Assembly (NCBI GenBank): GCA_017936265.1
Contig: JAGBFX010000003.1
Location: 1 to 64,000, forward strand
Direction: 5' to 3'
DNA length: 64,000 nt
DNA from: Bacteroidaceae bacterium
Lineage (GTDB): Bacteria > Bacteroidota > Bacteroidia > Bacteroidales > Bacteroidaceae
The notes below the pieces were generated by a model. The model did not search any database. It was not told the origin of the DNA and worked only from the letters and a program-made list of their open reading frames with translations. The position numbers and the translations under genes are program-made. Within the stretch, counting starts at the first letter, position 1. The number at the start of each line of letters is the position of its first letter. Shown here piece by piece: positions 934-29,590 of the stretch.

Positions 934-1317
934 TCACTCGCAACGGTACGTTACAATGCGGCTCTTGACAAGTAACCCCTCGCCTACCCCTTTGTCACTG
1001 GTTGTGTTGTAGAGGCATATCTCAATGCTCAGGTTATCCCATATGAGAGCGCCGCGGTTCTCATCATAATAGTTCTGCAGGTTGTTGCAGACTTTATTGA
1101 AACGTTCTATGGCGTCTTCCTTCTCGCATGGCACTGATGCAAATTCCTCGTTGACGGTCTCTATCTCGAAGATATTATCCTGTGGAATATAATCGAGCCT
1201 GTCATTGACCACTATCCTGAAGTGTGCCAATGGACCGTCGAGCTCGCACGAGGTAAATGCCAGCGGCAGGAACGCCGCCAGCATTATAAGAAGCATATTC
1301 TTTATCTTTCCTTTCAT
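934..1317 (-). CDS. Small lipoprotein, last gene of the giant-protein operon
   Basis: 127 residues. The N-terminus MKGKIKNMLLIMLAAFLPLAFTSC is a lipoprotein signal with lipobox FTSC, so the mature protein should begin at Cys24 with a lipid anchor. The remainder is acidic with mixed polarity. It has a second cysteine in VPCEKED, a cysteine in VCNNL, another in EICLYN and a C-terminal RCE. I recognise no family. Its ATG overlaps the stop of the upstream gene by four bases (ATGA), a sign of translational coupling, so it belongs to the operon starting at 25095. A periplasmic or surface accessory role for the large proteins is an inference. Confidence 0.7.
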   Translation of the reverse strand: MKGKIKNMLLIMLAAFLPLAFTSCELDGPLAHFRIVVNDRLDYIPQDNIFEIETVNEEFASVPCEKEDAIERFNKVCNNLQNYYDENRGALIWDNLSIEICLYNTTSDKGVGEGLLVKSRIVTYRCE

Positions 1318-4300
1318 TTTACAATATATTCATTTAACATCTTCAGTTCTGTGGCTGTAGGGATGACTTTCTTGCCCTTCTCAAGGAAGATGATATCATC
1401 CGCACTGCCGTCGGTCGACATTACTGCCTTCATCTCGCGGTAGCGACGTGCATTGTCAGGAACAATGAGGCCTGCATCATAGTATGGGGTCGTAAACTCC
1501 ACGATGTTGCCGTAGGTGAATTTGCCGCCGGCATAGACAAAAGCACGATAGTAGTACTTTGTATCAGGCATCAGGTTCAGCACACGCGAGTAATAACCGG
1601 TGCTCTTGTTTACCGTGACACTGCCGTCACGATAGACATTCTCATTGCCTTCGTTAAGGTCGGCTACGCTAAGGGCATACTCGAAACCTATATAAAGGTC
1701 ATTATACTCCTCAGACTCGATGGCTTCGAGCACCGTACTGTTCACCTTGCCGCGGAGTGTTGTCCACTCGTCATCAAGGACTGCATCGAATGTCTCAAGG
1801 TCGAAGTTCTCAAGCGGTTCCTCATCTACAGTAAAGCTCTTTATGGCACCGCGGTATGTCTGCTTTTTGTCTGCAGTCATTGCCACTAAGCGGTAGTAGT
1901 ACTTTGTGTTCCAGGCAAGATTCTTGAGTTCGGCCGAGTACTCGCGTTCATCTGTCATGGGAACATAACAGATTGCCGACGCCGACATATCCTTGTTCTT
2001 TGAGACCTCGAAATAGAGCATGTACTGCTTCTCATCTTCGTTCTGCACCGAATTGTCGAGACGCTCCTTCAGCGGTCTTGTCACAGAGCCAGCCATACTT
2101 ACCCTGTTCTTTGTGACAGTCGCCGACATTGTGGTAGCCATAAGGTCGAGTTTCTTGGTCTTGAACATATGTACAGGAGTTGCATAGTCCACCTCCCCGT
2201 CATCCAGCTCAAGGTCGAGCCTGTAACGGTAGTAGTATGTGGTAGACGGGGCGAGGTTCTCAAGTGTATAGTTGAGCAGATAGATATCCATCTCCTTGCT
2301 TGACCACCCTATTTTCTTGGTTATGTCAATCTCCTCGGCATTCTCATCAAAATCGTTCTCTGTAGTCGAGTACTGGATTGTTGTCTTTACCTTGCCTAAA
2401 GCATATTCGCCTTGGACGTCTGCCGAAAGTTCAGCCAACTCAGCCTCGGGTTTGGCAGCCAGATTGTCAATTGGTGGCGGCACCGAGAAAGGCATGACGT
2501 TTGACTCGTGTCTGTTGCCCTTGCCATCATCATAGACAACCTTGAAGTAGTACTGCTTGTCACGGTCCCACTTGTTGTCGGTCTCAAGGATTATCTCAAA
2601 GTCATCCTCATCGCTGTCACGGCCGATATCCTCAGGGCTGACAGCTATCTCATCACCCATGTCAATGAAATCCTTACTGTCGGCAACAAGGAACTTGTAC
2701 CTGTTCTCGTTCGATACCCCCATAAATCCCTTGTCGACTTTTGCGAAGAAGAGCACCTTGGTATAGCTTGCTTTTGCCTCAATGTCGGAGAATACCGGTT
2801 TTGTCCTGAACTTGACTGTGAGGCCCTTGTATGTCTTGCCGGTCTCATGGTCCTGCACAACGGCATTGAACATGTATTCGGTATCCGGTTTCAGTAGGCC
2901 GTCAAGGTTATACTCATAGCCCACCTTCCTCACGTTGTTGAGATAATCCATCGGCATTTTCGCGTCGGGGTAGTATGCAAAGCCTACGCTGAACCTGTTG
3001 TCGATATGGTTCATATCCTCGGCCTCATATATGCTGCTATGAAGATCGGCATTCAGCGTTGCGCCTACGGCCGTAATATCAGTAGCATCTTCGGTGGTGG
3101 GGGCATAGTATTCGAAGAAACCTCCCGGCCAGGTTGTACTATAGACATATTGGTCATTGGCACTGTCAATGATGTATGCCTGCACATTGAACTCATCGCG
3201 CGGGAACTCGCCACGCTCCACCGTCATTTTCATCACATTACTGCCGGGATGCGCCTTATCGAAGATGACCACCGGTTTAATCACATTATCGGTTTCCGGG
3301 TCAAGGAATATGAAACCGCCCTCCGTAATGTTGGGGTTATCAAGGGCATGCACTTCAAACTCCGCCTCAATTTCTGCCCGCTCATAATCCTTATCGTTCC
3401 TTGTCATTTTCACCTTGTACGGGATGTAAATCTCATCAAATTTACCCATTACAAGATTGCCTGTGTAGAAAGAGTTGTAAATGACCGGATATACACCTAT
3501 CAGACGTCCCTTCAACTGATCCAACCCATTCAGGTCAATACCAAACTCAATCTTGTTGTCCGAGGTAAAGTTATCAAAGAGACCGACACTCTTTACGTAG
3601 TCGGGATTGTGGTCAAGAGGTGCACCAGGCGAGTTGTCTACGAACATAATGCTGGCATCATATTTGAACAGATGCTTATAGTCACTCTTCAGTATTCCTT
3701 TATAGACACCACCTGTAAAATGCTTCTCCTCGAATCTGGTTGTATTCGGAACGGCACCTACCTCATACCAAGGGTAATACATCTTATTGTCAAGTCCGAA
3801 CAGACTCATCCAATCGCTGACCTTAAGACTCCACCCGTCGTTCAAGACCGTGAAGACCAGGTCGAACAGCAGTACACTTTCGAGTTTCAGGAAGGTTCCG
3901 TCATTCATCTTCTTATAGAGTTCCTCCCTTTCATACAGCCACTCCGGGTCATCCTCCAAAGCATAATCCAACTGGCCGCCCTCGACAGATGCTTGAGCCG
4001 AGATTTTCATTCCCGCGCCGAACTTCAGCTGGAATTTGACTCCTTGTCCCAAAAGACCGATACCGACTTTCACATGAGGTACAATCATAAATTCGCCTTT
4101 GACAGCGAAAGCGTCAGAACCATACAGACCTGTCGAGAACTTCTCCCGGGGGTCATCATAAACATGTTCTTCCCAAATCACATCCTTGTCAGAGCCTTGT
4201 AAGATAAAACCCACTTTACGTCCTATTTTAAAGCCGCCCTCTAATGAAGCCTGCATTCCCACAAAGAAATCATAGGTTACTCCCAAATCAATATTGATAC

Positions 4301-5282
4301 TCAACCCAGGCAGGACAGGTATAGGGATAGGGATTTTGACCCAATTCTTTTCTATCTCTTCTTTCGGCTTATAGCCAAAAGAGCCCTCTACCGTAATTTT
4401 ACCATCGAGCACGGCATCCACATAACACTCGGTCCGGGATATATCCTGTGCTTTATCTATAATCGTAGAACAACATGCATCAAAGAAACTTTTTCCCGTA
4501 ATCTTGACAACAAGCGGGCCTTCAGAACCGATGACAAACTTTCCATCCTCTTTTACTGAAAAGACTATATTTATCTCATGTTCTTTCTCTTCCTTCCCGC
4601 TTTCTATCTGTGAGTCACCGTCTGCACGCGTATTCAACCGTTTAACGACGATTTTCTTCTCGACGATAGAATCAGGCATCTCCTCTGTTTCTCCGTCCCT
4701 CGATACGCCACCTGTGTATAATACGTCATAAACGTCTTCAAGAGCAAGAGTACCGCATTGCATGACAACCACTCCACGATTGTAATCGAGATACATATTC
4801 TCGACAAGGCCCATGAATCCATATGGTAACTTGTCACGGTATATATTGCAGATCACCTTCTGCCCCACCTTGGGGACTTTGGTCTTTGTAATGCAATCGA
4901 TTCTGAAGTATATTGTGCTCGCGGAATCACTGTCGACAATATACTGGAACAACTCCTCTCCAATCTCGAACACCCCAGCAGCAAGTTGTGTTTCGGGCAG
5001 CTTGAACAGCAAGCTGTCGACCTTAGCCATATCATATTTCATAGTATCAGGATACAAGGCACCATTGACCATTATCCTTACCGGTCCATCATACTCATTT
5101 CCTAAGGTATCGGTTGTTGCAAAGGTTATCTTCCAGTTGCCGCCCTCGGCAAACATGAAATCATCCTCACTGTCGCACATTATACCAAAAGACTGCTGGA
5201 GGTCAACCTGTGCTGTCGCACCCGTAAAGGCCATCATGATGGCCACCGATGCAAGAAGCATTTTCTTAAGAATCCTTTTCAT
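1314..5282 (-). CDS. Large secreted protein with fibronectin type III-like repeats
   Basis: 1,322 residues with a Sec signal peptide (MKRILKKMLLASVAIMMAFTGATAQ). Residues about 25-230 are an unassigned beta-rich region. Residues about 290-520 contain Gly-rich alternating segments such as GVTYDFFVGMQASLEGGF and VKVGIGLLGQGVKF, similar in style to the central part of the giant protein in this operon. From about 735 to 1270 there are five FN3-like units of roughly 100 residues, each with the typical ending NLAPSTTYYYR or LMPDTKYYYRA followed by FTT or FKT. No enzyme motif and no clear T9SS tail are visible; it ends LNEYIVK. Start and stop codons overlap both neighbours by four bases, so it is translationally coupled. 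A surface or extracellular structural role is inferred from the architecture. Confidence 0.75.
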   Translation of the reverse strand: MKRILKKMLLASVAIMMAFTGATAQVDLQQSFGIMCDSEDDFMFAEGGNWKITFATTDTLGNEYDGPVRIMVNGALYPDTMKYDMAKVDSLLFKLPETQLAAGVFEIGEELFQYIVDSDSASTIYFRIDCITKTKVPKVGQKVICNIYRDKLPYGFMGLVENMYLDYNRGVVVMQCGTLALEDVYDVLYTGGVSRDGETEEMPDSIVEKKIVVKRLNTRADGDSQIESGKEEKEHEINIVFSVKEDGKFVIGSEGPLVVKITGKSFFDACCSTIIDKAQDISRTECYVDAVLDGKITVEGSFGYKPKEEIEKNWVKIPIPIPVLPGLSINIDLGVTYDFFVGMQASLEGGFKIGRKVGFILQGSDKDVIWEEHVYDDPREKFSTGLYGSDAFAVKGEFMIVPHVKVGIGLLGQGVKFQLKFGAGMKISAQASVEGGQLDYALEDDPEWLYEREELYKKMNDGTFLKLESVLLFDLVFTVLNDGWSLKVSDWMSLFGLDNKMYYPWYEVGAVPNTTRFEEKHFTGGVYKGILKSDYKHLFKYDASIMFVDNSPGAPLDHNPDYVKSVGLFDNFTSDNKIEFGIDLNGLDQLKGRLIGVYPVIYNSFYTGNLVMGKFDEIYIPYKVKMTRNDKDYERAEIEAEFEVHALDNPNITEGGFIFLDPETDNVIKPVVIFDKAHPGSNVMKMTVERGEFPRDEFNVQAYIIDSANDQYVYSTTWPGGFFEYYAPTTEDATDITAVGATLNADLHSSIYEAEDMNHIDNRFSVGFAYYPDAKMPMDYLNNVRKVGYEYNLDGLLKPDTEYMFNAVVQDHETGKTYKGLTVKFRTKPVFSDIEAKASYTKVLFFAKVDKGFMGVSNENRYKFLVADSKDFIDMGDEIAVSPEDIGRDSDEDDFEIILETDNKWDRDKQYYFKVVYDDGKGNRHESNVMPFSVPPPIDNLAAKPEAELAELSADVQGEYALGKVKTTIQYSTTENDFDENAEEIDITKKIGWSSKEMDIYLLNYTLENLAPSTTYYYRYRLDLELDDGEVDYATPVHMFKTKKLDLMATTMSATVTKNRVSMAGSVTRPLKERLDNSVQNEDEKQYMLYFEVSKNKDMSASAICYVPMTDEREYSAELKNLAWNTKYYYRLVAMTADKKQTYRGAIKSFTVDEEPLENFDLETFDAVLDDEWTTLRGKVNSTVLEAIESEEYNDLYIGFEYALSVADLNEGNENVYRDGSVTVNKSTGYYSRVLNLMPDTKYYYRAFVYAGGKFTYGNIVEFTTPYYDAGLIVPDNARRYREMKAVMSTDGSADDIIFLEKGKKVIPTATELKMLNEYIVK

Positions 5283-5788
5283 CGTACCACCACTTTAATT
5301 TTACAATCATTTACCTTGGCAAGATATGTTCCTTTAGGCAGATTGGCCAAAGGGATATTCTTCCTTGCATCTACAATCCCAGTCATAAGCAACTTTCCGG
5401 CGGCATCGTACAGATGAAGTGTTCCGCCGTCCAGGCTACTGTGAAATACCAGTTCCCCATCGATATAACGCATGGGGTTCGACTCATCGACCCCGACCAC
5501 AGTCGGCACATCTGTCGTTACTGCCTCGACAAACTTTAGCGACAGCAGTTCGTTGCGTTCGAACAGATACATCTCGCTTTTTCCGGAAACCTCGACATAT
5601 TGTACTAATTTCCCGTCCTCACCACTCTGGGTATATGAGTATATAAAGGACTCCGAATCGATATCAATGTCGAACACTCTTCCGTCCACCAATGCAAGCA
5701 CGACCTTGTCATACTGTCTTATCTTGCCGTCGGCCATCGCTGTCGACACAATCATCACTGCAAACAAAAGAAAAAACAATTTTCTCAT
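5279..5788 (-). CDS. Small exported protein with T9SS type A-like C-terminal sorting domain
   Basis: 169 residues. Residues 1-19 (MRKLFFLLFAVMIVSTAMA) form a signal peptide. A short beta-rich part (KVVLALVDGRVFDIDID...) leads into a C-terminal 70-residue segment, LHLYDAAGKLL ... LPKGTYLAKV ... IKVVVR. This follows the pattern of the type IX secretion type A sorting domain: a YD..G+ turn, an L..G.Y...V strand and a final basic strand. There is very little cargo ahead of that tail, so the protein may act as an anchor or be assembled with its neighbours rather than be an enzyme. The stop overlaps the next start by four bases. Type A tails are known to direct export and surface attachment in T9SS organisms; use of that route here is inferred. 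Confidence 0.75.
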   Translation of the reverse strand: MRKLFFLLFAVMIVSTAMADGKIRQYDKVVLALVDGRVFDIDIDSESFIYSYTQSGEDGKLVQYVEVSGKSEMYLFERNELLSLKFVEAVTTDVPTVVGVDESNPMRYIDGELVFHSSLDGGTLHLYDAAGKLLMTGIVDARKNIPLANLPKGTYLAKVNDCKIKVVVR

Positions 5789-5803: not shown

Positions 5804-6499
5804 TCAGTTACCATAATTACGGCTCTTGCACCTATAACGTTTGAGGTCGGAGAGCGTTCCGTGTGTCTCACCGTCAAGTTGCAGTTCCTCTATCACAAAG
5901 CGCTGATGGATATCGGGGGTGTAGCACTCTATAGTAGCCTCCTCGCCCGGCCATGCCGTCTTTATCCTTAACTCAAGATAAGGGATATCATGCTCTCTGC
6001 GCATTACCGCCATGCCGCGCAGTTCGCCGTCGACAACCGCTACAAGACGCGTATTGCCAAGGTCATCGGTCTTCTGCGCACCATCTATTACCAACGAGCA
6101 ATAGAGAACTGTCTCGTAGAGATACTCGTTGCTTATGGTATTTCCCCAGTCGAACACATTTACATAGCAGCTGTCACTTATTATCTCTGCCTCATTGCTT
6201 ATGCGCTGCGCCTGCACGACAACAAGGGCCTTTCCCTGTTTCAGGGCCTTTACCTTGCGCCCGGCCAGCTCAATGGCATCCTCATCCCCCTTTACAAGCC
6301 AGTAATAGGAAACCGGTACGGTGTCAGTCGACAACTCAATGTCAAAAGTCACCGAATCACCGACGCAGAGGTCCACCTCATGATGCGACATCCTGAGCCC
6401 GTCCACGGCGGGTTGCTCCGTCCCGAAGTTGAAGAACTCTCCACAGGAGCAGAACAGCACCGTAACAAACAGCAGGAACATGTTACCAATCCGCTTCAT
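5804..6499 (-). CDS. Lipoprotein with an Ig-like domain
   Basis: 231 residues from the ATG at 6499. The in-frame ATG at 6532 would add 11 residues before the signal and is less likely. The N-terminus MKRIGNMFLLFVTVLFCSC is a lipoprotein signal with lipobox LFCSC. Residues about 30-110 (VDGLRMSHHEVDLCVGDSVTFDIEL ... GKALVVVQAQ) look like a bacterial Ig-like (BIG2-type) beta sandwich. The C-terminal 110 residues are unassigned and end in RYRCKSRNYGN. It sits 43 bases after the 766-residue FN3 protein and 15 bases before the T9SS-tail protein, in the same operon. Confidence 0.7.
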   Translation of the reverse strand: MKRIGNMFLLFVTVLFCSCGEFFNFGTEQPAVDGLRMSHHEVDLCVGDSVTFDIELSTDTVPVSYYWLVKGDEDAIELAGRKVKALKQGKALVVVQAQRISNEAEIISDSCYVNVFDWGNTISNEYLYETVLYCSLVIDGAQKTDDLGNTRLVAVVDGELRGMAVMRREHDIPYLELRIKTAWPGEEATIECYTPDIHQRFVIEELQLDGETHGTLSDLKRYRCKSRNYGN

Positions 6500-6542
6500 C
6501 TTAATTCTCGTTATATTTAGACAAAATATCATTCAAACAAAA

Positions 6543-8843
6543 TCACTTTCCGTTCCCTTCCTCGGGCACCTCAACCGACACCACATTTGAGTAGGGCGAC
6601 ACATGTCCCTCTCTGCTACGCACTCTTATGCGGTACTCCGCCTTGTCTCCCGCCTCCATATGGGCATCGATGTAATCAGTCTCGTTTATATTTACCGACC
6701 TTACGAAACGGAATATATCATCGTCACTCATCTTCCTGTATATGCACAGGTATAATCCCTTGTCAAGCATATCGCGTGTGATGCCCGATATGTCCCATGC
6801 CAGATGGACCTGCTCATCATCATTCCTGTATGCAGCACCCATTCTCAGTGTCAGCGGCAGCACTGTCTCTCCCTTGAAGAGGAACGACGTCTCGTACGAT
6901 GGTTCCGATGTCACACCTGTCTCGTTCATTGTTTCAATGTGGTAGTAATATCTCTTCTTGCTGTCTGGAACAGGAGAATCCACCACAAGCAGACGGCCGT
7001 TCTTTACCGAGTCCTTTGTGAGCACATTAATGAGCGTATTATACTCCTCGCCATGCACGCGACGGTAGACATAGAACTTCTCCACATCATCCTCGGATGA
7101 TGGGAACCAGGTCATGTATACCCTCTTCGTATCCTGCCACACCGAGTCAATGCGGCAAGGACGTGGCGGGTCATAGTTCTTGCGTTTCACTGTCAGTATC
7201 TCGGAGAAAGCCGACTCGTTACCCGAGAAGTCGTAGGCCTTGACACGATAGTATGTATATCTTTGTATCACATTTGTTACCTGCAACGTATCAAACATTA
7301 TCGGTGTACGGCTCATCTTGCCGTGTTTCTGCAGGAACGTGTGTGTACTGTCATTCGCATAATAAAGATGATATCCTGCGACGTCAGGCTCCGGGTTCTT
7401 GTTCCACCTTATCATGACACTGCCGGTAGGCGACATCACATACTCGAGGCCTGTGGGCGCTGTCGGAGGAGTGAAGTCCGCTATGAACAGTTCCTGTGGC
7501 ATAGCCGCCGAAGAGTTGTTCAGCGTGTCCACGGCAACCACCGTCACATGACCTGTACCGAGGAATGTCACCTCGCAACGGAAAGATGTCATCTCGGGGT
7601 CAAGCAAACGTTCGTTAAGCTTTACCCAGACAGAATCGACCTGAGCATTGTAATAGTAGACATTATAACCGAGGAAATCGGGCTCAATGATATTCTTTTC
7701 CCAGATGACATCGGCCATGATTGTATTCTCAGTGGGACGTTCCACATTGAACTGGATGATAACCGGCGCTGTGGGCGGGATGACATCGGCCAGTTGTGCT
7801 GTATGCACCTTGCTGTAAGCGCTTTTCTCGCCGAATGTATCGTAACCGCATATACGGTAGCTGTATGTACCCGGCTCAAGGTCCACATCCTCGAATATAT
7901 TCTGTACCGTAGACTCATCCTCCTGCGTGAACAGCGTCATGAAACGGCGCTCATTCAGTTTTATCCACTCGCCCTTCTCATCCAGGCGTTCGATATCATA
8001 CGTACTGAACTGTGGTGTCCTTGACCAGAAGAGACGTATTGAACGGCCGTCGACACCCATAGAATCGGTTATTACCGGGTCATAGGGCAATGGTTTTTCC
8101 TTGACATTCTTCACAATTACCGGTTGGTAGGACATATTCAGTTCCTTTTCCGGGATATCGGTAGTCACTACATATGTATACTCGGCATTCTTCGCTGCTG
8201 TTTCATCGGTATACATCATCGCCATAGCCTCGGCAAGGTCGGGACGTACCTCGGCAAGCAGCATCGCATAGGCATAGCGTGTCTGCTGCTCCTCATAAAC
8301 CTGCATGATACCCTCGGCACCGTCCACGCCAATGGCCATATTCAGTTCGGTTCCTGCACCGTAGAGCATCTGTGCAGCAGCACCTGCAAGAGAGTCGTTC
8401 GGTTCGAAACGCTCCTTCAGCTGTTCAATGGTATATGGTTTCAGGTTCTTCTGCAATGTATCCACTACCCCATCCTTACCGATACGCAGGATATTATATC
8501 CATACTTGTTGGCAAGATACCATGGGGCGAACTCATCGGGTGCCCAACGGAGCAACACCCTGTCTCCCTTGGCACGTGCAAGTACATGGACCGAGAAACC
8601 TGTAGTGACCGAATCGCGTCGGGTCGTATCGACAGGTGCCGTCAGCAGATACTCTTCATACTCCTTCTGGCTCATCTTGCTAAAATCCACCCTGTTGTCC
8701 TCAATCGTATCGGCCGGCGCGGTAAGGGCAATCATCTTCTCGACAATGCCACAACCTTCATGCACCACCGCAGCCTGCGCTGCGGTGCCTGCAAGCAACG
8801 TAGCCGCCACAACAAATCTACTTATTCCTGAATATACTTTCAT
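6543..8843 (-). CDS. Secreted fibronectin type III repeat protein
   Basis: 766 residues with a signal peptide (MKVYSGISRFVVAATLLAGTAAQA). Residues about 75-260 are an unassigned N-terminal region with repeated YA-rich helices (TRYAYAMLLAEVRPDLAEAMAMMY). Five FN3-like domains follow, beginning near residues 261, 356, 454, 560 and 661, with hallmarks such as TPPTAPTGLEYV, VMIRWNKNPEPDVAGYHLYY and RYYYHIETMNETG. The protein ends VEVPEEGNGK with no sorting tail. It lies 25 bases after the giant gene, so the two are almost certainly co-transcribed. FN3 arrays in secreted bacterial proteins usually act as spacers or bind polymers; the partner here is unknown. Confidence 0.8.
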   Translation of the reverse strand: MKVYSGISRFVVAATLLAGTAAQAAVVHEGCGIVEKMIALTAPADTIEDNRVDFSKMSQKEYEEYLLTAPVDTTRRDSVTTGFSVHVLARAKGDRVLLRWAPDEFAPWYLANKYGYNILRIGKDGVVDTLQKNLKPYTIEQLKERFEPNDSLAGAAAQMLYGAGTELNMAIGVDGAEGIMQVYEEQQTRYAYAMLLAEVRPDLAEAMAMMYTDETAAKNAEYTYVVTTDIPEKELNMSYQPVIVKNVKEKPLPYDPVITDSMGVDGRSIRLFWSRTPQFSTYDIERLDEKGEWIKLNERRFMTLFTQEDESTVQNIFEDVDLEPGTYSYRICGYDTFGEKSAYSKVHTAQLADVIPPTAPVIIQFNVERPTENTIMADVIWEKNIIEPDFLGYNVYYYNAQVDSVWVKLNERLLDPEMTSFRCEVTFLGTGHVTVVAVDTLNNSSAAMPQELFIADFTPPTAPTGLEYVMSPTGSVMIRWNKNPEPDVAGYHLYYANDSTHTFLQKHGKMSRTPIMFDTLQVTNVIQRYTYYRVKAYDFSGNESAFSEILTVKRKNYDPPRPCRIDSVWQDTKRVYMTWFPSSEDDVEKFYVYRRVHGEEYNTLINVLTKDSVKNGRLLVVDSPVPDSKKRYYYHIETMNETGVTSEPSYETSFLFKGETVLPLTLRMGAAYRNDDEQVHLAWDISGITRDMLDKGLYLCIYRKMSDDDIFRFVRSVNINETDYIDAHMEAGDKAEYRIRVRSREGHVSPYSNVVSVEVPEEGNGK

Positions 8844-8868: not shown

Positions 8869-11800
8869 TTACTCTAAACTTGCAGTACCTCCGGCAAGTT
8901 CAATAGCACTCTTTATTGCTTCTGCTTCATCTTGACTCTTGTCCGACGCAACTACAACAGGAATTGTCTTGGTAATGGTATTGGCCTCTGTGAGCGACAT
9001 TCCGCATGACTCCTTAACAGCCTTTACCACATTGAGTCTGTTGGTTCCCACACTTGTAAGCACCACATTGAACTCACTCTTCTGCACGACTTTCTGCAGA
9101 TTTGAAGGTGCATTCAATGGTGCGTTGACCTGTGTAGAACCTCCAACGGCATCAATGGCGCTCTTGATAGCCTGTGCCTCAGACTCCGTCTTGTCGGTCG
9201 CTATCACTACCGGGGCACTTCCGCAAAGAGTATTGGCCTCGGTAAGAGTTAAGCCACAGACATCTCTCAACGCCTTTACCACATTTAATTTGCTTGCCCC
9301 CACGCCCAAAAGGACAACCTCGTATCCGCGTGTTTCATCTGCCTGAACCGGTTTTATCGAGGCATCGGCAAGAACGACAGCTCCGCCACCGGCTGTTACA
9401 ATGTCCTTCCTGAGAGCCTCAGCATCGGCACGTGTTGCGAAGCCGCCTGCTACCACTGGGGCGTTGTCGCACAAAGCCTTGGCTTCCACAAGCGTATAGC
9501 CGCAATGCTCACGCACAGCAGTGATTACACTTACCTTGTTGTCGCCGGCACTGGTCATGTACACCTCATAAGGGTTATTCTTCGCAACATAGCCGACCTC
9601 CTTGAGCATATCGTCGAACTTTGCACCAGAAGCGAAATTACCTTTGGCTACACAGTCTATTATAGCATCTATCGCGAGCTGCTTGTTTGCATCGCTAAAG
9701 CCGCGTCCTGCCTTCGCTTCGGTATTGAATCCCTCCAATGCCGCATCGCATGCAGTCTTGTTTCCGCCAAGCAGTACCATGTTGAAACGCTGGCCGGAAT
9801 AATTGCCCTTTGACCAGTCGGCAAGGAACTTGAGCGCAACATCAGCCGACTTGAAAATGATGCTAGGTGTCACATTCCTGTCAAGTTGCAGGTTCGATAT
9901 TGAAATCTTGTCAAGGTCGCCATGCATAATCAGATATAGACTCTGCAACTTCAGAGTCTGCATTTTACATGAATAGATATTTACAGAACCTGAAATCGTA
10001 AGCTCACCCAATTTGTTCGACGCCTCATCTATCGTCCACTGGCCTGGAGAAGAAACCCTCAGGTTCGTGACAACATTCTTCAAGGCAGCATCGAGCACGT
10101 TCTGGTTTATTGTTGTACCCTTGAGGTCAAGTGCTATTGCCTTGCTTCTGAATACCAGCGTGTCGAGCGGAACCGTTCCGTTTGACAGGATATATATACC
10201 CCTTACAGGTATAAGCATCTTGTCTATGGCATTTTCCGAAGCATCTACCCTTGTAACCGACGGCATATATTGCAGAACGACATTCAAGTCCACCACGCCC
10301 ATTCCTGCGCAGTCGAGTGACGTAACGTTCTTCAGGTCCTCGACATGCAGATACTCCTTATCAGGAGCATACTCCTTCTTGAGTGCATCGTAAAGTGTTG
10401 CACCCATTGCACGGCTCATCCTCAAATCATCATCCGTACGTGTCTCGTGCAAGCCGAACTCATCAAGCACCTCGTTGAAGCGTATACCCTTGGGCACATC
10501 ACCCCTGAAAGCATACGGCAACAGGATGTTGTTGGCCATCTGCTTCATCTCATCGGTAAGCTTGCTCACAGAACCGGTCGCTGTTGCGCTGTTGATGAGC
10601 GACAGCATTCCGTTCAGTTTCTGGTCAATCTCCTCGTTACCTGTCTCTACCCTCATTGTGAACTTGCAGTTCGGATTGTCATCAATCCACTTGTTTACCC
10701 ACAGGAGAGGCATATCCACAGTCGTGAAGACAAGTTCTATGGGCTGCTCATTGTTCTCGATAAGCAGTTTCTCCATCTCGCATGTGCTGATGCGTGCAGA
10801 ATGGAAAGTTATTGACTTTCCGCTGAACTTGAGCACATTGGCATAGCAACCCTGCAAATCAAGCTCACGGTTCTTGCTTAGCAGTGTAATAGTCTTAGGA
10901 GACATCTTTGCTGTTCTAGATTTCAGCACAAGAGGATTCGGTCCGAGGTCACTGCTTGCAATTAGGGCACCGCCTCTTGACATCAATGCCGCCATGTTGA
11001 GGATATTGTCATCAATGAACGAGTGGGAGAGGTTTATGCGTTCTGCACAACCCTCATACTTGGCGCTCAATGTCCTGAGTTCCGGGTTGTTCGACAGGTC
11101 GAGTACCTTGAGACCGTTGACAGGAATATCCACATTCTCCAATTCATTGCCTTTCGCATCCACAGTCTTCACATTCGGCATATATTTGAGTATGCCACCA
11201 AGATTGACAATCTCCATGTTAGCAGCCTCAAGAGCAGCAAGTTCTGCAATATTATAGGTGTGCAAAGCGCGATAGCCGAGGCTGTCGGGGCGGAGCTTAT
11301 CCTTCATATATTTGTAGAAGGTCTCGCCCATAGCCTTGCGTAACACAATATCATCCTTGCTCAGGCTCTCAAGATACCTGTCTTCATCCTCATCATAAAA
11401 GGCCAGTACTTCCATGCTTTGATAGTTTCTGACGACTATCATATATGTAGTGTGGATATTCTCCGGCCAATCTTTCCACTCATCCCATTTTGTAAACCAC
11501 TTGGAACTGAGCACACGTACTGCAACCTTGTCGCCGGTCCTGCGCTGCGGGACGCCCACGCCAAGGAATGTAATCTTGCACTGTTCGGGCTTTGTAAGAC
11601 CTATTCCAAAGAAAACATCCTTCACATCACAGCCCGATACGTTTATCTTTCTCAGTTCCTTATAGGAATCGGGGTAGTAACCGACCTCAACAGCCAACTC
11701 CGGGTTGTTCGACAAGTCAACCTCAATGAGTGATGTCCAGTTCTTCGACGCCTCGTTCCCGAGTTTGAAACCAGTGTTCAAAGAACAGTCATTAGCGTAG

Positions 11801-14800
11801 AGATACTCCAATGAGGTCGCCATTTCCGGCATCACAAAACTCTTGAGCTCCTTGTTGTGGGAAATATCCACCTTGCGCAGCCTTGTGTAGGCCGAGAGGT
11901 CAATTGTCTCAAGACCTGTGAAGGCATTCTTCGCGTTGAATGCAGTAAGACCGTTACCCGCGGGCATTGAGAAACCGGCTGCATCAATGCGGTTGTCACT
12001 TATGCTCAAGGTTGTAATGTAGTTCAGCTTGTCAAGGTGAAGTTCTGTCAGGCTGTTGCCCGAACAGTCAAGCTTGCTCAGGTACTTGCACGCAGCGGGA
12101 TAGAGGACATCGATATTGTTATTGCCGCATTCAAGGATGCTTAGCGACGGCATCATATCCACTGGCAATGCCGAGAGTCCATTGTTGTTGATATACAATA
12201 TCTCCATCGCGTTCTTCTCTCCTACAGTGAAGTTGTGTATCATGTTGTTGTTTGCATAGACACGCCTCAGTTTATGGAAACCGCTTATGTCAAGCGCTGT
12301 AAGTTCGTTATCATCAATGTAAAGGCTTGCAAGTTCCGGCATATAATAATCAAGATACTCTATTGACTTGATGCCAAGCCCTTCGGCATGCAGGGTTGTC
12401 TGTTCAAGTGCCCATACATCCAGTTCCTTGCCGGCTTCCTTGGCAAGTTCATTCAGTCTATTGTAAAGGTTCTTGTCCATCTTTTCCCTTGCAGCATCCT
12501 CGCTCTTCTTTATAGTAAAGCATACAACACAGTTTGGTGAATCCATGTCGTTTATTGTTGCTCCGCCGCTGCTTATGCCGAATGTCACCACATCATTGCG
12601 GACAACATTGTTCCTTGGCGTTGCTGCACCCTCCTTGACTTGATAACCAAGCCTTACATTCTCCTCCTTAATCCTGTAAGCCGCGCTGATATCCAGATTG
12701 CGTATATGGTTCATGCGGAGGTCAATCTCCTCAAGATTTATATTTTTAGACAAGTCAATCTCCTTGAGGTCACAGTCAACAGCATGCAAAACTTTCAGTT
12801 TGCTGCATTTTGAAACATTCAGATACTCAATACCTTTATGCTTTACAGTACCATTGTTCACCGCAGCCATTTTGTCAGCAGTTGAACCGCTCTTCTCGCG
12901 CATGTCAATCTTGAGGGTAACAAGTTCACTGTTTGAACCGAAATCAAGTTTATTGACATACCAGCGGTTCATGAGCACATAGTTAAGGTTAGGATTGCTC
13001 TCGAAGCTCAATGAAGGAGTATTCTTCCTGAACTCATTATGTGTAGAGGCCGCATTGTCATACAGATACAGGCTCCTGAGGTTAGGCATATTCTTCAACG
13101 CATCAAGAGAACTGATATAGACCTTCCTACCGTCTTTATACGTATAGATGTTGTCAAAGTCAAGGGTAAGGGTCGTTATCTTGTTCATCTCATCGATATG
13201 CATCTTGCCATCCTTGTCAGCATCATAGTACTTGAGGATGTATGCAAGCATTGCCTTGTCACCGATATGTACGAATTCCTCATTCTCAACCTCGGTATCG
13301 CCGAAAGTGAAGCTTACCACACTTTTTCCTCCTTCCCATACAGACTTCAAATCCACCTTTTCCGACATCACGACAGTGCGCTTGGCACTTGTCAGCGGGC
13401 GTGTGCCATATTGGTTTACAGTACTGCCGTTACCGGTTACAGCCGCAATGTTATAGCCGTCGCAGAAGCGCATCTTCACAGTGATTTTCTTTATACGTTT
13501 AAGGAAATCCAAAGGGTTGAATGTTTCCCAATCGCCGTTCATATACTTATAGGCATAGGTTGCCAAGCGTCCGCAGTTGGCTTCATTAAGGCCATACTTG
13601 TGAGGATGGTCGGCTGCATATATAAGACCGAGCTGCCACCTAGGCATTGCAGCATAGGCCTTATCACTTTTCTGTGGATAATAATTCATATAACCGGTAA
13701 GAATATAGCCATTCTCGGCAGCCAAGTCAAAATCGGCATTACCTTTGCCCAATTTATGATAATTATAGTAGTATTTTATCCACCTTTCGAAGTTCGCGGC
13801 AATGTGGGCATCGGATTGGTATGCATCCAATATATCTGTGAATACGCTGGTACCATCAATATCATCATAGCGATACCACTTTGTATTGTGTTTGGGGTTA
13901 TAGTAGTAGTCATATGTCGCATCGGACACAGTTGCCGCACTGTTGGTTATGCGGTTACGCAACCATTCGTAGCCCGGTTCGAATGTGACACCGGTAGATA
14001 TCTCGTTGCCTTCCATTGCACCGACATTGCACCTGTTGAACGGATAGCTGCAGAAATCATATTCCGGAGTCTTGTTATAGGTGATTGCAGCCTGTGAGTG
14101 CCAGAAGTTGAGAGCATAGTATGGATTGGTACTCCTTGAATCGCTGCCACTCATCTCAACATCCTCGACCTTACAGTAGAGTGAAGAATAATCGACAGGA
14201 CTGCCTTTAGAGTAGTTCTTGCGCCAGAGGTCCCAGCCGCCGCGTGACACAAAGTCCTGGAAGGTAGCAATGCCGTTGTATATGTAGTCTTTTGTATACA
14301 CAACCTCGGCAAAGCCCTGGGCATTGGACTTCAGTTCCTCCTTATACTCCTTTATACGCTGTTCGGCCTCGTTCTCGCCATACATCTCCCCTACCTCCTT
14401 ATAGTAGTTGTAGAGGTCGCGTATTGCCTGGTTCACCTGCTTGTCACCGGCCTTGGCGTCGCCTTCGGCAATGGCCTCGTCCATTTCGGCAAGCTGCTGC
14501 TCGTAGGCATCGACATCCTCCTTGGTCATGGCCATGATGCTCTTGTAGTTCTCCTCAATCATGTCCATGTAGCTGTCGAGCTGGGCACGGTTTATGCGTT
14601 TGATTTCGAAGCGGTAGGTTTTGTCCTTTATAAAGTTCTCACCGGGAACAGGTTTCTCAATTGTAACAGTGGCATACTTGAACTCCTTGCCCTCATCATC
14701 ATAGCCTTGCTCAACAATCTCAATGACAGGCAAATTATCGTACTTTGATACCTGACCCTTGCGGAGTCCCTGACGGGCGTCGGGAAGCACATACATTCCG

Positions 14801-17800
14801 GTAGCTTCATCGTACTCCTTTATGCTTGCCACAAACTCATGGTCGGGATTGTTCCAGTAGTCATCACGCACGTGCTGCTCCATGATAGACGGTTGGGTGG
14901 CATTCTCAAGAGTCTGTGTAAACTCGCTCTCGTTTGGCAGATAACCCACAACCTCTTTATTTATATCATTGCTGAGCTCTCCTGTACGGAAATAAACATA
15001 GCGCTCATCGGCAAATGGGCGGTGAACATCCTTGTAATTGGAGAGAGAATCCCTGTAAATCGGGTCAACCTCATCGCCATTGACAATCTCCTTGCAGGTA
15101 CCGCGCAGCTTTATGCGGTAGAGAGTGTTAGGTTCGAGTGAACCGGTAACAATCTCGTAGTTCTCCCTGTCGAATGTGGGGTTAGCATGTGTTACATATG
15201 TTGTAATTGCAGCGCGCTCATCATCGGTGGGGTCACTCTCATCGTACTTCTTCATCTCGAAGTTATTGTCAAGATGGAACACATACTTGCGTGTTATCTG
15301 GCTGCCGTCGCCACCCATTCCGTCCTCTCTCATGGTAGCGCCTTCATCCACAAGCGTGAGCACCTTGTCTATCTTCATGTTGGTAGTGAAGGTAGACTTT
15401 CCGTAGCATGACGCAAGAGACTTTGCACTCCAGCCCTTCTCGATATCTTCGTCACCAGGCTGAACGTCGCCGAAAATCTTGATATCATCGAGCGGATTAC
15501 CCATTTCGGGCACGCACACTTTACCTGCCTTCATTTCTATTGTCGAACTGAACTTGATGAGACCTCCAAGCACTGAACCCTTGGCACGCAGACGGCCATA
15601 GACCCATGTGGGGTTGGGGAAGCCACCCTGCAACAGAGCACCTATTGTCATGTCCACCAAAGGCACTTTGCCCTTGAATATCCAAAGGTCGAGCATAAGG
15701 CCAAGTTCACCCTTGAGCATTGCATATATCTGGCCGGTAGCGTAGAAACCGTTCTTTCCGCCGGCACGCGAGCCATCAGTACACTTCACACCCTCCTTAT
15801 ACTGCTTGAGGATAAGGTCAAAGCCAAGCATACCCTCTATATCGGCATAGCAGAACACCGCATTACATCCAATCTCGGCACCAAGAGCAGCACCAACCAT
15901 TATACCGCCGTTGATGTCGCCTGCAGGACCGCCCTTCATTGTCTGCTCACGTGCAGCGTCGAGCTTTCTCTTCAGACTTGCATCTACCTTGCCGTCGGCA
16001 CCCTTCATACCCAATGCCTCCTGTACCTTGTCGGGGAGTGCCGGCAGCTGGCCATTGCCCGGAAGCTCGTTACCGATACATAGATACATGTTGGCATATA
16101 CCTTTGCCCACAGGCCTACAGGCGAATTCCTGCCCACCTCAAAGTCGATGAACGTTACACGGCAACGCTTACTCTCATCTGGCTCGCCCACATAGAGGTG
16201 CCAGTATGTCTTGTCGAGCGAAGGATAGTTGCGTATCTCAAGTTCCATATTTATTGAAGCACCACAACCGGACTTCACATAGCCTTTGCTCTCGAGCTTG
16301 CCTGAAGAAGAACTTTCATTCTTCTTCTCACCCTGATTCTCACTGTCGGCACTCTTCTGGTCAAGAGCCTGAAGGTCCGATATCGGAGCCTTTACCTGGT
16401 ACTCATCGCCTGTGAACTTCTTGTACATGGCGGCAATATCGGTATCCACCGTTACCGACAGACGGAACATCTTGTGCTCTTTGTTCTTTGCCGCAAGTTT
16501 CTCCTTGAGTTCGGATGCATCCATTGCCTTCTTCTCATCCTCAGTGATGTCAGGCGTTGTGGTATCCTCGTAAAGAATTGTTACCTTGCCGTTGACAAGA
16601 CCACTCTCGGCATCGGCCGAAGCACAGAGCGCATGCACCTCGCCCTGCATTACCACACCCGGAACGCGGATGCCGTCCCTCTGTATATCAACCATGAGCA
16701 GAAGCGAGGCCTTACCGTTGATGAAATTGTCATCACCCACAGCAAGCCCGAGGCCAAACATACCGCCATAGGATTTGTATTTCGGCTTGACGCTCTTCTC
16801 GAGCGCATCTACCATATCATCACTGCCTGCAACTTCGGAAGCTGAAACCGAATAGTTTACAAAGAAGCCACCCGAGATTTCCTTGAGCGATACAGGCCCC
16901 AACGGCAGACCGACACCGAAACCGGCCTTCGCAAGGAAATATCCTGCATGGTAATACTCATCGTTCCGCTCCTCGGGGTCATCGAGTTTGAGCTCTTCCT
17001 CGCTCTTCTTTACCTTATAATATCCACCGGAGAGCTTAATATCGAAGAGACCCTTTACCGTCACATCAAGGTCGGCATCAAAGCCCGATTTCTCCTCTTC
17101 ATCAGAGACTTCAAGGTCGCCGACAACGGATACCATACCTGCGAACTGTCCTTCGACATGCAGTTTTTCGAATTTTACCTCTTTATATTTGATAGTAAGT
17201 TCTTCCCAGTCAATCTCGGACCATATTGTGAGCCCAACAGTTGCACCGAGACCGAACTTCTTGTTACCCATGACCACAATACCTCCTTCAATGCCGAGAC
17301 CGATGGTTCCGGCACCATCGCCCACCTTCATCGATATATTCTCGAGCACAAGAGGCATTCCGCCCCAGAAAGTACCTTCGTCACTTCCCGGGTCACCTGC
17401 TAAAGCCCATTTTCCTGTGTGGAAATTGGTATTTCCATCTGGGCTTGCCACACCCTTGCCGTTGTCCTTCTTATCATTACTTTTCTTGCCAGTGAGCAGA
17501 CTCTGGTCAAAGTTGGCGATACGCATGTTCTTGAACGGGATATCGGGCAAGTCAAAGTCGATATCCTCGAGGCATGTGATGCTTACCTTACCGTCGAGAC
17601 AGAGTTCGACAAGCGTCTGCTTACCCTTGGGCAATGTGTCGCAATAGATGACATTGAAGTAGGTGCTGTCCTTATTGAACTTTACTTTGGCGAGCATGAA
17701 GTCAAGACCCACCTCATCATCAATCTGCTGCATCTTGAAATTGACGGCAAGACCGTCCTTCTTTCCATGTGCAACTGACTGTATATCGGCCTTGTAACCG

Positions 17801-20800
17801 ATTTGTGCCTTTTCGGTAGTGTCCTTCTTGCACAATAGAGGAACCTCTATTCTACCGCTAAGACCTGAACTGCCGAAGCCGTTCTGCTTTATATTAAGGT
17901 ATATGTTGTCGAGTGTAATCTTCCAGCCACCGACTTTAGGTGTTCCGTAAGTGAACAGACTGTCGACAGAGGCCGTCATGGAGAAGCCCGAAGCATCGTA
18001 GATGACACTCTTTACAGCGACCTTCACGCGAGAATCATCCTCTGAATTAAGTTCAACAAAGTGAGGCAGTTTACAGCTGAGTTCCTCAAAGTAGAAGCCT
18101 TGCCACTCGTTGTATGCCTTCTCGCTCTTCCCCGGGTCGGCCGAGAGGCCTAACTTACCATCGTACTTATAGTTGTCGGGGAACTTTATGCCGGCTGGAG
18201 TCCTTTTCTTTGAACGGTCGAGGACTATACCCACAGAATCGCCCACTGCGCTGAATGTGAAGCCCGGGGCACTTGCCACCTGGAACGGGTCCATCTTGAC
18301 CGTCGCAAACCAGTCTTCTGCATCGGCGATGAAGGCAGTAAGTGTAATCTCGGGATGTACAGAGGGGTCAAGGGCAGCCTTGCCGTTGTCCTTTATAAGT
18401 TCGTCACTCGGCAGGTTCATGCTTATGCTTGCGCAAAGTTCGTGGAACTTGCCGTCCTTCCATGAGATGAAACAACCGTCAGTGGCCTTGCTGTAGTCCT
18501 GATTAGTAGGTGCATTGAATGTGAACGTGAAGTCCGATTCAGGGTCCTTGACCTTGAAGCTCTTTACCAGACCCAAAGAGCCGCTCTGCGGGAGGAAACT
18601 CTCGGGCGAGGTGCCGAGCTTACGCGCCGCGAATATGAGAATCTCGCTCTCTATGGCCTCGCACTCGGGGAGCACGAACTCGCCTATGAGGTCGAGGTTT
18701 GCACTCTCGGGCAGGAACTCCATCTGTGCCAACTGTATTGTCGCCGGACACTCCATATCCTTGTCCATCGGTACAGAAAGGCCGATAGGCAGAGTGACAA
18801 TTGCAGCCGAATCGACCTTGGCCAGCGTCTGCATGGCATTACCTACCACGTAGTTGTAGAATGCACCCACTCCACTCTCCTTAAGCAGTTCCTCTACCTT
18901 GGCCTCGGCATTGATTGAGTCACTCTTCTGCAGTTCCTTTACAAAATTCTCCTCAAAGAGGTCTAACGGTACATGTGCGCTCTTCTCGGTTATGGACTTT
19001 ACCCCGTTCTTTACCACGCGCTTTATTGAAGCATCGACATAAATGCTGTCGAACTCTACTGCTACACGCACAGGGACCTGCATCATGGTTGTGTGCACAT
19101 AACCCTTACCCTTAAAGCACTCGTAACCTTTATCCTTAAGCTCCTTATCCTTGGCATCTACCTTCTTGGCCTCGGTGAGCGTGAGACGGTACTCGCCTAT
19201 CCAAAGATCACGCAGTGCCGGCTGGAACACAGTGTCGCACACCGAGATACTGTCAACCTTATATACTGAAGGCTTATCCTCATCCTCAATTATCTTGCGC
19301 CATACAAGGGCCGTAATCTTGTTGTCGCCCTCTTTCATCTCTATTTCAAGAGGGTCGGGTTTCTCGGGCTTGACCGTGCCCAATGTATCGGCCTCGAAAA
19401 GCGGAGCACCGTAACTGTACATATCGTGTCCGCACAGGTCGTTCAGACGTGATGCCGAGAGTTTAAGTTTCTCATCGGGCTTCACTGTTATGATACTGTC
19501 GGGCTTGCTTATGAAGAAACGGTCATTATATGTAAGTCGCAGACCTACCTTCTGCTCCTTGCCTGTTACATTGAGCAGTGTGACCTCAAAGAGATTGCCC
19601 GGTTTCTCGAAGTATTCATCGGGCTCAGGTTTGAATGTCGCATCTTTCTTGGGAGCGACAGTCACGACCACCTCGGAAAAATCCATCTCCTTGGCGTTAA
19701 AATCCGATTTTCCGCCACCGAGCATCGCTCGTGCTTTGCGGTTCTTCTCATTGGCAGCAATCTTCTTGAGCGAATCGGCACTATATGCTACCACCTCTAT
19801 CTGGTTGAACGACTGCAGGTTCACTACCTTGCTGATGTCCGGGATATCGGCCTCGACAAAAGTGCCGTTGAGACGGGACTCGAAACATTTTATGCTGTCA
19901 GGCATGCCGCACAGGGCATTCAATTCCCCCGCAGTAAGTTTCTTTACCTCGTTGGGGCCAAGCGCTATCGCCTTGTCGTAACGCGGTTCCTTGAATACCG
20001 AGGTATAGTAAGAGCCGAACTCATCGAACAGGTACATGATATTCGGGAGCACATTGTATGTATTGGCTGTGTTGTTCTTCAGTTCAACCTCGAACAATGC
20101 AGCAGGGCTCTCGAAATATAGTTCACTCTTCGCCGGCATTGGGTCGAGCTTCGGTTTCACTGTCACCGTCACATCATCGAGACGCACCAACGGCGACACC
20201 TGATATCTCACATGTCCTTCTCCCATTATGAAATCGGAGAGTTTACCAACAGCTACCTGCTGGACAGCAGGCTTGAGAGCCGTAAAAGTGAGCTTGCTGA
20301 AAAGCTCGGGATCTATCGTGATATCCTTGTCTGCATTAAGGATATCATACTCCGCTTTTTCGGTTATATTGCCCTCCTGGTCGCTCTTTATTCTTGTAAA
20401 GCCCTTCCCCGCAAAATAGAGGTTTACCTGTTCATCATCAAGCTTTATTGTCTCGCCTGGCTTGATGACCACACGTTTAAGTTCCTTGTCCTTGTATGAG
20501 TTCGAAAGATATGTGATACCGTCATCATCGTTGAACTCATACATTACCATTGGCACCAGCACTGCACTCATGTCGCCTGTATTGCTCAAAGAGACCTCGA
20601 ACAGCTGTTCGGGTTTTGTGAAGTATGCCCTTGCATTGTAAGGCATAGGGTTCATCTTGAGGCTTATCGAGACATCAAGGTCGGTAAGAACGACATCTTC
20701 ATCGGCCCAGAAGTCAAAGGATTGATTGGCGACAAGAATCCTCTTCATCCTATCCTCGGCATCGGCGGGAACAGCACGCGCACTGTCGGCATTGATAAGG

Positions 20801-25095: not shown

Positions 25096-25274
25096 CTCTC
25101 CACTATTTTTAAAAATAGCCTTTACTCTTATTCCTATATATATTGTCCTGCCGATGCAGGTAGGTATTTTCATTTTGAGGTTGCTGTGCAACATTGCCCA
25201 TATGTCGCCGTGCTATTGGAACGGCAAGGGTGGACAATCCCTTTTTTAAGGTAAAAGCAACAATGTTCCGGTTG

Positions 25275-29526: not shown

Positions 29527-29590
29527 AACACAAAAAGATTTAAAAAGATTATGTAATGTTTCCTTATTCTTTTGCATTTTTTCACTAATG

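Follow-up and report, generated by a model that had tools for sequence, protein, structure and literature searches.

Tandem ribosomal bL12 C-terminal domains at the end of a giant Bacteroidaceae protein with a Sec signal peptide

What does a ribosomal domain do at the end of a giant protein that carries a signal for export? Almost all bacterial ribosomes contain bL12, a protein whose C-terminal domain (CTD) is best known for one task, the catching of translation GTPases. In the window, by which we mean the whole stretch of 64,000 nucleotides of Bacteroidaceae DNA that was analysed, a tandem array of such domains closes the giant P0001, whose single frame runs without a stop through 4,788 codons, 4,781 of them counted from the first ATG. 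The original prediction of a giant of 4,781 residues with a Sec signal is upheld by this frame and by a signal, judged by eye, which recurs in the homologues and whose cleavage mark falls between MIKHRIFSTIVLMLMCAGSLFA and Q. A tandem array on a Sec-signal giant, selected while its GTPase-binding face erodes, offers a natural experiment in domain recruitment, and the label 'ribosomal protein L7/L12' may be misleading on a protein that is secreted or sits at the surface.

The final ~235 residues of P0001 contain three matches to PF00542, the profile of the bL12 CTD, and all three exceed its curated cut-off of 25.9 bits (Table 1), in agreement with the prediction of three CTD-like domains at this end. 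Over the whole protein, PF00542 scores 134.6 bits (1.4e-39), and the bL12 equivalog of NCBIfam, TIGR00855, reaches 123.2 bits (8.2e-36) against a cut-off of 84.4. Sequence searches of the PDB retrieved the E. coli bL12 CTD (1ctf) at 2.8e-9 with P0001 alone and, when a 12-row profile of the domain was used, the solved bL12 2bcw at 1.2e-25. With a bL12 profile built in this analysis from 31 rplL frames, one of them reduced to a single residue, the real copies score 36.9, 44.9 and 56.2 bits; a chance match is excluded, because the best of 2,000 shuffled tails reaches only 8.4 bits. The copies are on average 37, 37 and 45% identical to the ribosomal bL12 of the family, and on these sequence criteria P0001 bears three true bL12 C-terminal domains. 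They share with the ribosomal CTD its sequence profile, a length of ~68 residues and core residues, and with Bacteroidaceae bL12 one cysteine. They differ in standing in tandem on a signal-peptide giant, in a basic GTPase face that is partly lost, and in the N-terminal dimerisation domain, which binds L10 and has no match in P0001: the best TIGR00855 stretch covers positions 50-123 of 125, and the three P0001 stretches start at positions 57, 41 and 51 of the home-made profile.

Table 1. Features of the giant gene and its operon, in window coordinates.
Feature	Positions	Strand	Basis or remark
P0008, 127 aa, lipoprotein-like (by eye)	934..1317	-	sequence
P0003, 1,322 aa, secreted, fn3-like C-terminal part	1314..5282	-	PF16656 38.4 bits
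P0006, 169 aa, T9SS type A sorting tail	5279..5788	-	TIGR04183 29 bits (cut-off 23)
P0005, 242 aa, lipoprotein-like (by eye), operon partner	5804..6532	-	no Pfam match
P0004, 766 aa, secreted fn3-like, operon partner	6543..8843	-	best Pfam match below cut-off
Giant protein P0001 with signal peptide, 4,781 aa	8869..23214	-	one open frame
bL12 C-terminal-like domain copy 3 (last)	8875..9072	-	residues 4715-4780; PF00542 61.8 bits
bL12 C-terminal-like domain copy 2	9127..9321	-	residues 4632-4696; PF00542 53.2 bits
bL12 C-terminal-like domain copy 1	9385..9567	-	residues 4550-4610; PF00542 52.7 bits
Leucine-rich-repeat (LRR) region, about residues 3472-3841	11692..12801	-	PF12799 3e-21, PF13855 1.8e-6
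Giant core, about residues 1330-2800, common to distant giants	14815..19227	-	blastp
N-terminal region, about seven copies of a ~165-aa repeat	19315..23145	-	internal repeat search
Sec signal peptide, residues 1-22	23149..23214	-	by eye; homologues' N-termini similar
P0002, 649 aa, probable outer-membrane beta-barrel, operon partner	23245..25194	-	by eye; no Pfam match
P0007, 1,323 aa, Ig-like, secreted, upstream of barrel gene	25606..29577	-	PF02368 6.5e-9

The rest of the giant is modular. The first of the N-terminal repeat copies, near residue 35, is weak (domain E 0.089); the others lie near 369, 526, 692, 857, 1026 (the query) and 1199. Both LRR profiles exceed their cut-offs of 27 bits, PF12799 with 75.4 and PF13855 with 28. 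Residues 3627-3840 match internalin J (3bz5) at 8.5e-7 in the PDB sequence search, and further LRR-like sequence follows residue ~3841 by eye. This part of the giant thus matches LRR surface proteins, internalin A as well as J; in anchoring, length and C-terminus, internalin-type proteins are unrelated to it. The giant gene belongs to an operon of large exported-looking proteins (Ig-like, barrel-like, giant, fn3-like and lipoprotein-like; window 934-29577) that recurs in other genera, beside which a DUF1573/HYDIN-like Ig-domain protein is encoded on the other strand (457-870). Pfam and NCBIfam scans assigned no function to the giant's partners; P0003 matches PF16655 at its cut-off.

Concerning export, a T9SS part, SprA (TIGR04189), was searched for and found in 8/8 genomes with L12-bearing giants, and the own genome has nine T9SS sorting-tail matches, eight over cut-off. 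The tail of P0006 reaches only 19.1 bits with the Pfam model PF18962 (cut-off 27), and P0007 has a C-terminal sorting tail by eye only, with no TIGR04183 match at 0.01. P0001 itself matches neither TIGR04183 nor PF18962, its C-terminus being an L12 domain; since the giant lacks such a tail, its passage to the surface is something we infer, and it could remain periplasmic.

The reading that we prefer, and hold at about even confidence, is that the array is an exported, re-purposed bL12 docking or adhesive module at the distal, fast-evolving end of what is probably a surface giant. An older giant protein would have gained a bL12-type CTD at its end in a single capture; this protein would be exported by Sec and would probably reach the cell surface aided by its barrel-like neighbour and T9SS-type partners; SprA in all eight genomes searched and the tail of P0006 within the operon are counted in favour. 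The captured domain would have multiplied in tandem, forming with the preceding LRRs the fast-evolving distal end. Its compact core would have been kept while most of the translation-factor face was lost and a new surface took over, and the array would serve as a protein-docking or adhesive module whose ligand is most likely a host, food or neighbour-cell surface protein.

P0001 is 58-86% identical to eight aligned full-length homologues, and a ninth (L067, on contig JAGBBX010000037.1) has the same build. All ten close giants that were read to their end, the window's included, finish in one to five bL12 domains: one in G067 and L067, three in the window, G116, G158 and G210, four in G200, G204 and G231, and five in G201, numbers that rest on metagenome assemblies, which can contain too few or too many units of a tandem repeat. 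Two partial giants, G206 with four copies and G211 with three, bring the total to 38; contigs L059, L064 and L066 stop before the giant's C-terminus and were left out of the counts. Across the genus, PF00542 matches occur in 31/44 genomes, many of them ordinary rplL of about 129 residues, and giant-type matches in ten genomes besides the own one. The twelve named giant contigs belong to metagenome assemblies of Bacteroidaceae or Bacteroidales, and ten are labelled as coming from the ruminant hindgut (goat, sheep, roe deer, yak and water deer).

Selection differs along the protein. The dN/dS ratio is 0.05-0.07 in the core for nine of ten pairs, the tenth being saturated, 0.19-0.28 in the LRR part (ten pairs, three saturated) and 0.00-0.38 in the L12 copies where computable (ten pairs, two cases saturated); these values indicate a tail that is selected but evolving faster. 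The last copy of the window has a dS of 1.38 and 1.65 against G231 and G200 (core 0.86 and 0.64), and between G231 and G200 dS is 0.23 in the last copy and 0.77 in the core, which, over ~70 codons, is only a hint that the gene's end has recombined. The domains might instead be a structural spacer or cap, stable beads that make the C-terminus longer or shield it and have no specific partner. A copy number varying from one to five, as in length-varying stalks, would suit such beads, as would neighbouring copies that are nearly identical (93% in L053; 87% in L056 and L039). However, the first and last copies within one giant are only 25-37% identical (six proteins compared), yet both have dN/dS well below 1 between species in the pairs computed, and two homologues have a single copy; we consider a mere spacer rather unlikely.

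A core-alignment search of the family returned 36 places in 31/301 genomes and 11/30 genera, seven of the close type and 29 more distant. The comparison with distant giants covers 11 loci out of these 29 places, some of them cut by contig or fetch ends, and all 11 share the core at 27-33% identity (blastp), over shorter stretches in L074, L080 and L081. No frame of at least 90 residues in the 11 loci gave an L12 match at E up to 10, and one of these L12-less giants, G186, belongs to the window's own genus. The operon partners are found there nonetheless: P0002 has homologues in 9/11 distant loci (42-45% identity in L071-L073 and L075-L079, 27% in L080), P0004 in 10/11, P0007 in 8/11 and P0005, weakly, in five (L071, L072, L073, L076 and L077), and P0003 has none in the loci as fetched. 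Pfam gave a single match, below its cut-off, on the C-terminal parts of 8/11 distant giants. Because the operon is kept in distant loci without L12, the array looks, within the loci fetched, as if one lineage had added it to an older operon of exported proteins.

The same loci bear on the proposal that the tail docks within the export or surface complex, as a retention or assembly signal for the barrel, the T9SS or the operon partners. It does occupy the extreme C-terminus, where T9SS signals sit, and P0002 and P0004 travel with the giant; on the other hand, 11/11 fetched distant giants lack the domain, most with the same partners and one in the same genus, so the domain is not needed for the export of such proteins, and we judge this proposal unlikely. 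Regarding the origin of the array, all 37 giant copies kept in a tree of 69 columns and 84 rows (duplicates and rows with more than 15 gaps dropped) form one clade with a weak support of 0.70, and one capture followed by tandem amplification appears likely. A phage origin of the domain was considered and is unsupported: the three PHROGs matches have no known function, and the strongest reaches 5.9e-8 over 33 residues; a scan of viral contigs confirmed no relative; and 14 of 50,697 phage records matched, all below 60% identity, four of them carrying a ribosomal L7/L12 annotation and the other ten none. In one human gut phage record (MT836236.1:2903-3118, unannotated), a bL12-domain-like match has 43% identity in two pieces.

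The contact face was compared, in E. coli numbering, in an alignment of 38 giant copies, 31 ribosomal rows and 33 others (32 without a partial rplL). The rplL row L024 is reduced to one residue, leaving 30 readable ribosomal rows, which include the partial L034; L034 is counted among the others in the alignment and the cysteine counts and removed from the basic-face counts, and L046, the sub-cut-off G085 protein, is kept among the others. Core residues persist in the giant copies, with L80 in 34/38, A83 in 37/38, P91 in 38/38 and G114 in 35/38. According to an excerpt of PMC6753160, the translation-factor site of L12, on helices 4 and 5, carries positive charge and is highly conserved, and an excerpt of PMC10602876 terms K65, K70, K81 and K84 highly conserved and reports weaker EF-Tu binding of K65 and K70 mutants. 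At positions 65, 70, 73, 81 and 84, a basic residue is present in 30/30 ribosomal rows at each position; in the giant copies, which are kin and whose counts are therefore not independent, it is present in 34, 25, 26, 4 and 14 of 38. The corresponding counts are 4, 8, 11, 6 and 8 of 11 in other secreted-looking copies and 18, 19, 20, 14 and 19 of 21 in intracellular-looking non-ribosomal ones. Position 73 is included here as what we take to be part of the GTPase-binding basic face. The mean number of basic residues out of five is 4.84 in ribosomal rows (the unreadable row counted as 0; all 30 readable rows have 5/5), 2.71 in the giants (3/5 in each window copy), 3.36 in the other secreted and 4.29 in the intracellular-looking copies, and the loss in the giants falls mainly at 81 and 84.

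These counts speak to the option, raised in the original prediction, that the tail captures what L12 normally meets, here translation GTPases (for example EF-Tu or EF-G on cell surfaces or released by lysis), through the ancestral face. Positions 65, 70 and 73 remain basic in most giant copies, and three of the 11 other secreted copies (L035, the second copy of L082, and L083) keep all five basic residues. Positions 81 and 84, however, are conserved throughout the ribosomal rows and basic in only 4 and 14 of the 38 giant copies, within a site whose charge and conservation are the features described for factor binding, and with a mean of 2.71 of five against 5/5 the eroded face disfavours such capture for P0001, to the point that we think it very unlikely. 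The other option then offered, reuse of the fold as a binding module, is by sequence the likelier of the two, the basic face being eroded and the core kept. The array of P0001 has cysteines at 4571 and 4582 in copy 1, at 4653 and 4664 in copy 2, and only at 4737 in copy 3; in the alignment, Cys 76 occurs in 30/30 readable ribosomal rows and 31/38 giant copies, and Cys 87 in 21/38 giant copies and no ribosomal row. Among 37 distinct giant copies, 13 have Cys 76 only, three Cys 87 only, 17 both and four neither, with no association between the two (Fisher p 0.68, n=37). The suggestion that extra cysteines point to disulfides thus loses its footing, one of them being already ribosomal and the pair unassociated, and the pattern would neither support nor exclude a disulfide.

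The giant also invites comparison with TANFOR-type polymorphic toxins, in which the L12 array would be the variable toxic or delivery end. As those toxins are portrayed in an excerpt of PMC7073777, the giant is likewise large and Sec-exported, with a signal peptide, N-terminal repeats, neighbours with fn3-like domains and T9SS tails, and a variable C-terminal end. In contrast to them, its N-terminal 1,238 residues do not match TIGR02542 even at an E of 10, and Pfam and NCBIfam show no catalytic or toxin domain in it. In 11 genomes, TIGR02542 gave five weak matches, none in a giant and none over cut-off, in a test without a positive control, since 14 control genomes also gave none over cut-off. 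P0004, the gene that follows, is also kept where the L12 domain is absent and therefore looks like no cognate immunity gene, and a toxin of this type seems most improbable. That an assembly error fused rplL fragments to the giant gene, a thought prompted by the absence of both rplL and rplJ from the own assembly, deserves next to no credence, because 10/10 close giants from separate genomes end in such domains under purifying selection and the window copies are only 37, 37 and 45% identical to family ribosomal bL12; the joined-frame artefact that the original prediction had allowed for is thereby ruled out. The own assembly is 87% complete, and rplJ is the usual neighbour of rplL. Its loss along with rplL indicates an assembly gap, not a replacement of rplL, and the giant was accordingly rejected as a substitute for the missing gene.

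The domain has other non-ribosomal copies. Of 201 genomes of the family, the own among them, 15 show several PF00542 matches; when the 14 others and G194 were searched again, the extra match fell below cut-off in G085, G122, G023 and G141. The rplL of G194 (C11:67518-67664) matches PF00542 over positions 1-49 only, within a 116-residue frame, and looks cut short or frameshifted. Across the order (393 genomes), 14 genomes besides the own have more than one match, and 11 of these 14 have a non-ribosomal frame. The proposed search for further signal-peptide proteins with PF00542 was fruitful and speaks for the docking or adhesive reading: seven more Bacteroidales proteins with the domain have signal-like N-termini, location inside or outside the cell being judged by eye throughout and L042, L044 and L083 being classed by likeness. 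Five of the seven were scanned with Pfam, and beside the bL12 domain L040 has Cleaved_Adhesin and fn3, L045 Cleaved_Adhesin and dockerin, L036 a sub-cut-off dockerin, L035 a carbohydrate-binding-type domain and L082 22 stretches of the Listeria-Bacteroides repeat. L040, L045 and L082 resemble the giant in being secreted-looking and multidomain, with one or two bL12 CTDs, and differ in that their remainder is unrelated by Pfam and their copies fall outside the giant clade. Two separate exports of the bL12 domain, one in the giants and one in the Cleaved_Adhesin, dockerin and Listeria-Bacteroides-repeat proteins, would be likely but weakly supported on this evidence. The broader proposition, that Bacteroidales turned the bL12 CTD into a general extracytoplasmic docking module through at least two exports, the tandem copies of the giants recognising outside partners with their changed face, is put forward tentatively, a little short of an even chance.

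ClpS and ribosomal L7/L12 fold adaptors form a fold group, and like the giant tail they are small alpha/beta docking domains joined to other modules. In contrast to the giant, the use described for the ClpS-ribosomal L7/L12 domain in an excerpt of PMC12419801 is cytoplasmic, and one cyanobacterial orthocaspase with Ribosomal_L12 appears in an excerpt of PMC8283722. Among the matches listed by a search of papers outside subscription journals, none deals in its title or abstract with a bL12 domain outside the cell. The original prediction that no system of this kind has been described agrees with those matches; it does not extend to non-ribosomal use of the domain, which is in print in the two excerpts just cited, nor to the wider order, where the domain also occurs in other secreted-looking and intracellular-looking proteins. 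In the giant, the known bL12 domain stands in a new place and probably has a new job.

Several intracellular-looking proteins of the order carry the domain as well. Each product of three adjacent genes (L050:2462-9151; G230:C33) has a bL12 domain behind an N-terminus that resembles a zinc ribbon by eye, and two of the three products continue with Sel1-like repeats (Pfam on one of three). A 360-residue protein (L051:3897-4976; G208:C95) combines a TIR domain, a bL12 CTD of 62.3 bits and a SEC-C motif. In L091:525-2279 (G457:C1), EF-Tu domain 2 is joined to a caspase (Peptidase_C14) and a C-terminal bL12-like domain that scores 24.5 bits in one scan and 28.6 in another, around the cut-off of 25.9, placing two translation-type domains on one caspase. 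Apart from these intracellular-looking cases, a protein of 357 residues (L088:101-1174; G392:C476) contains three bL12-like domains, the first two of which are almost identical.
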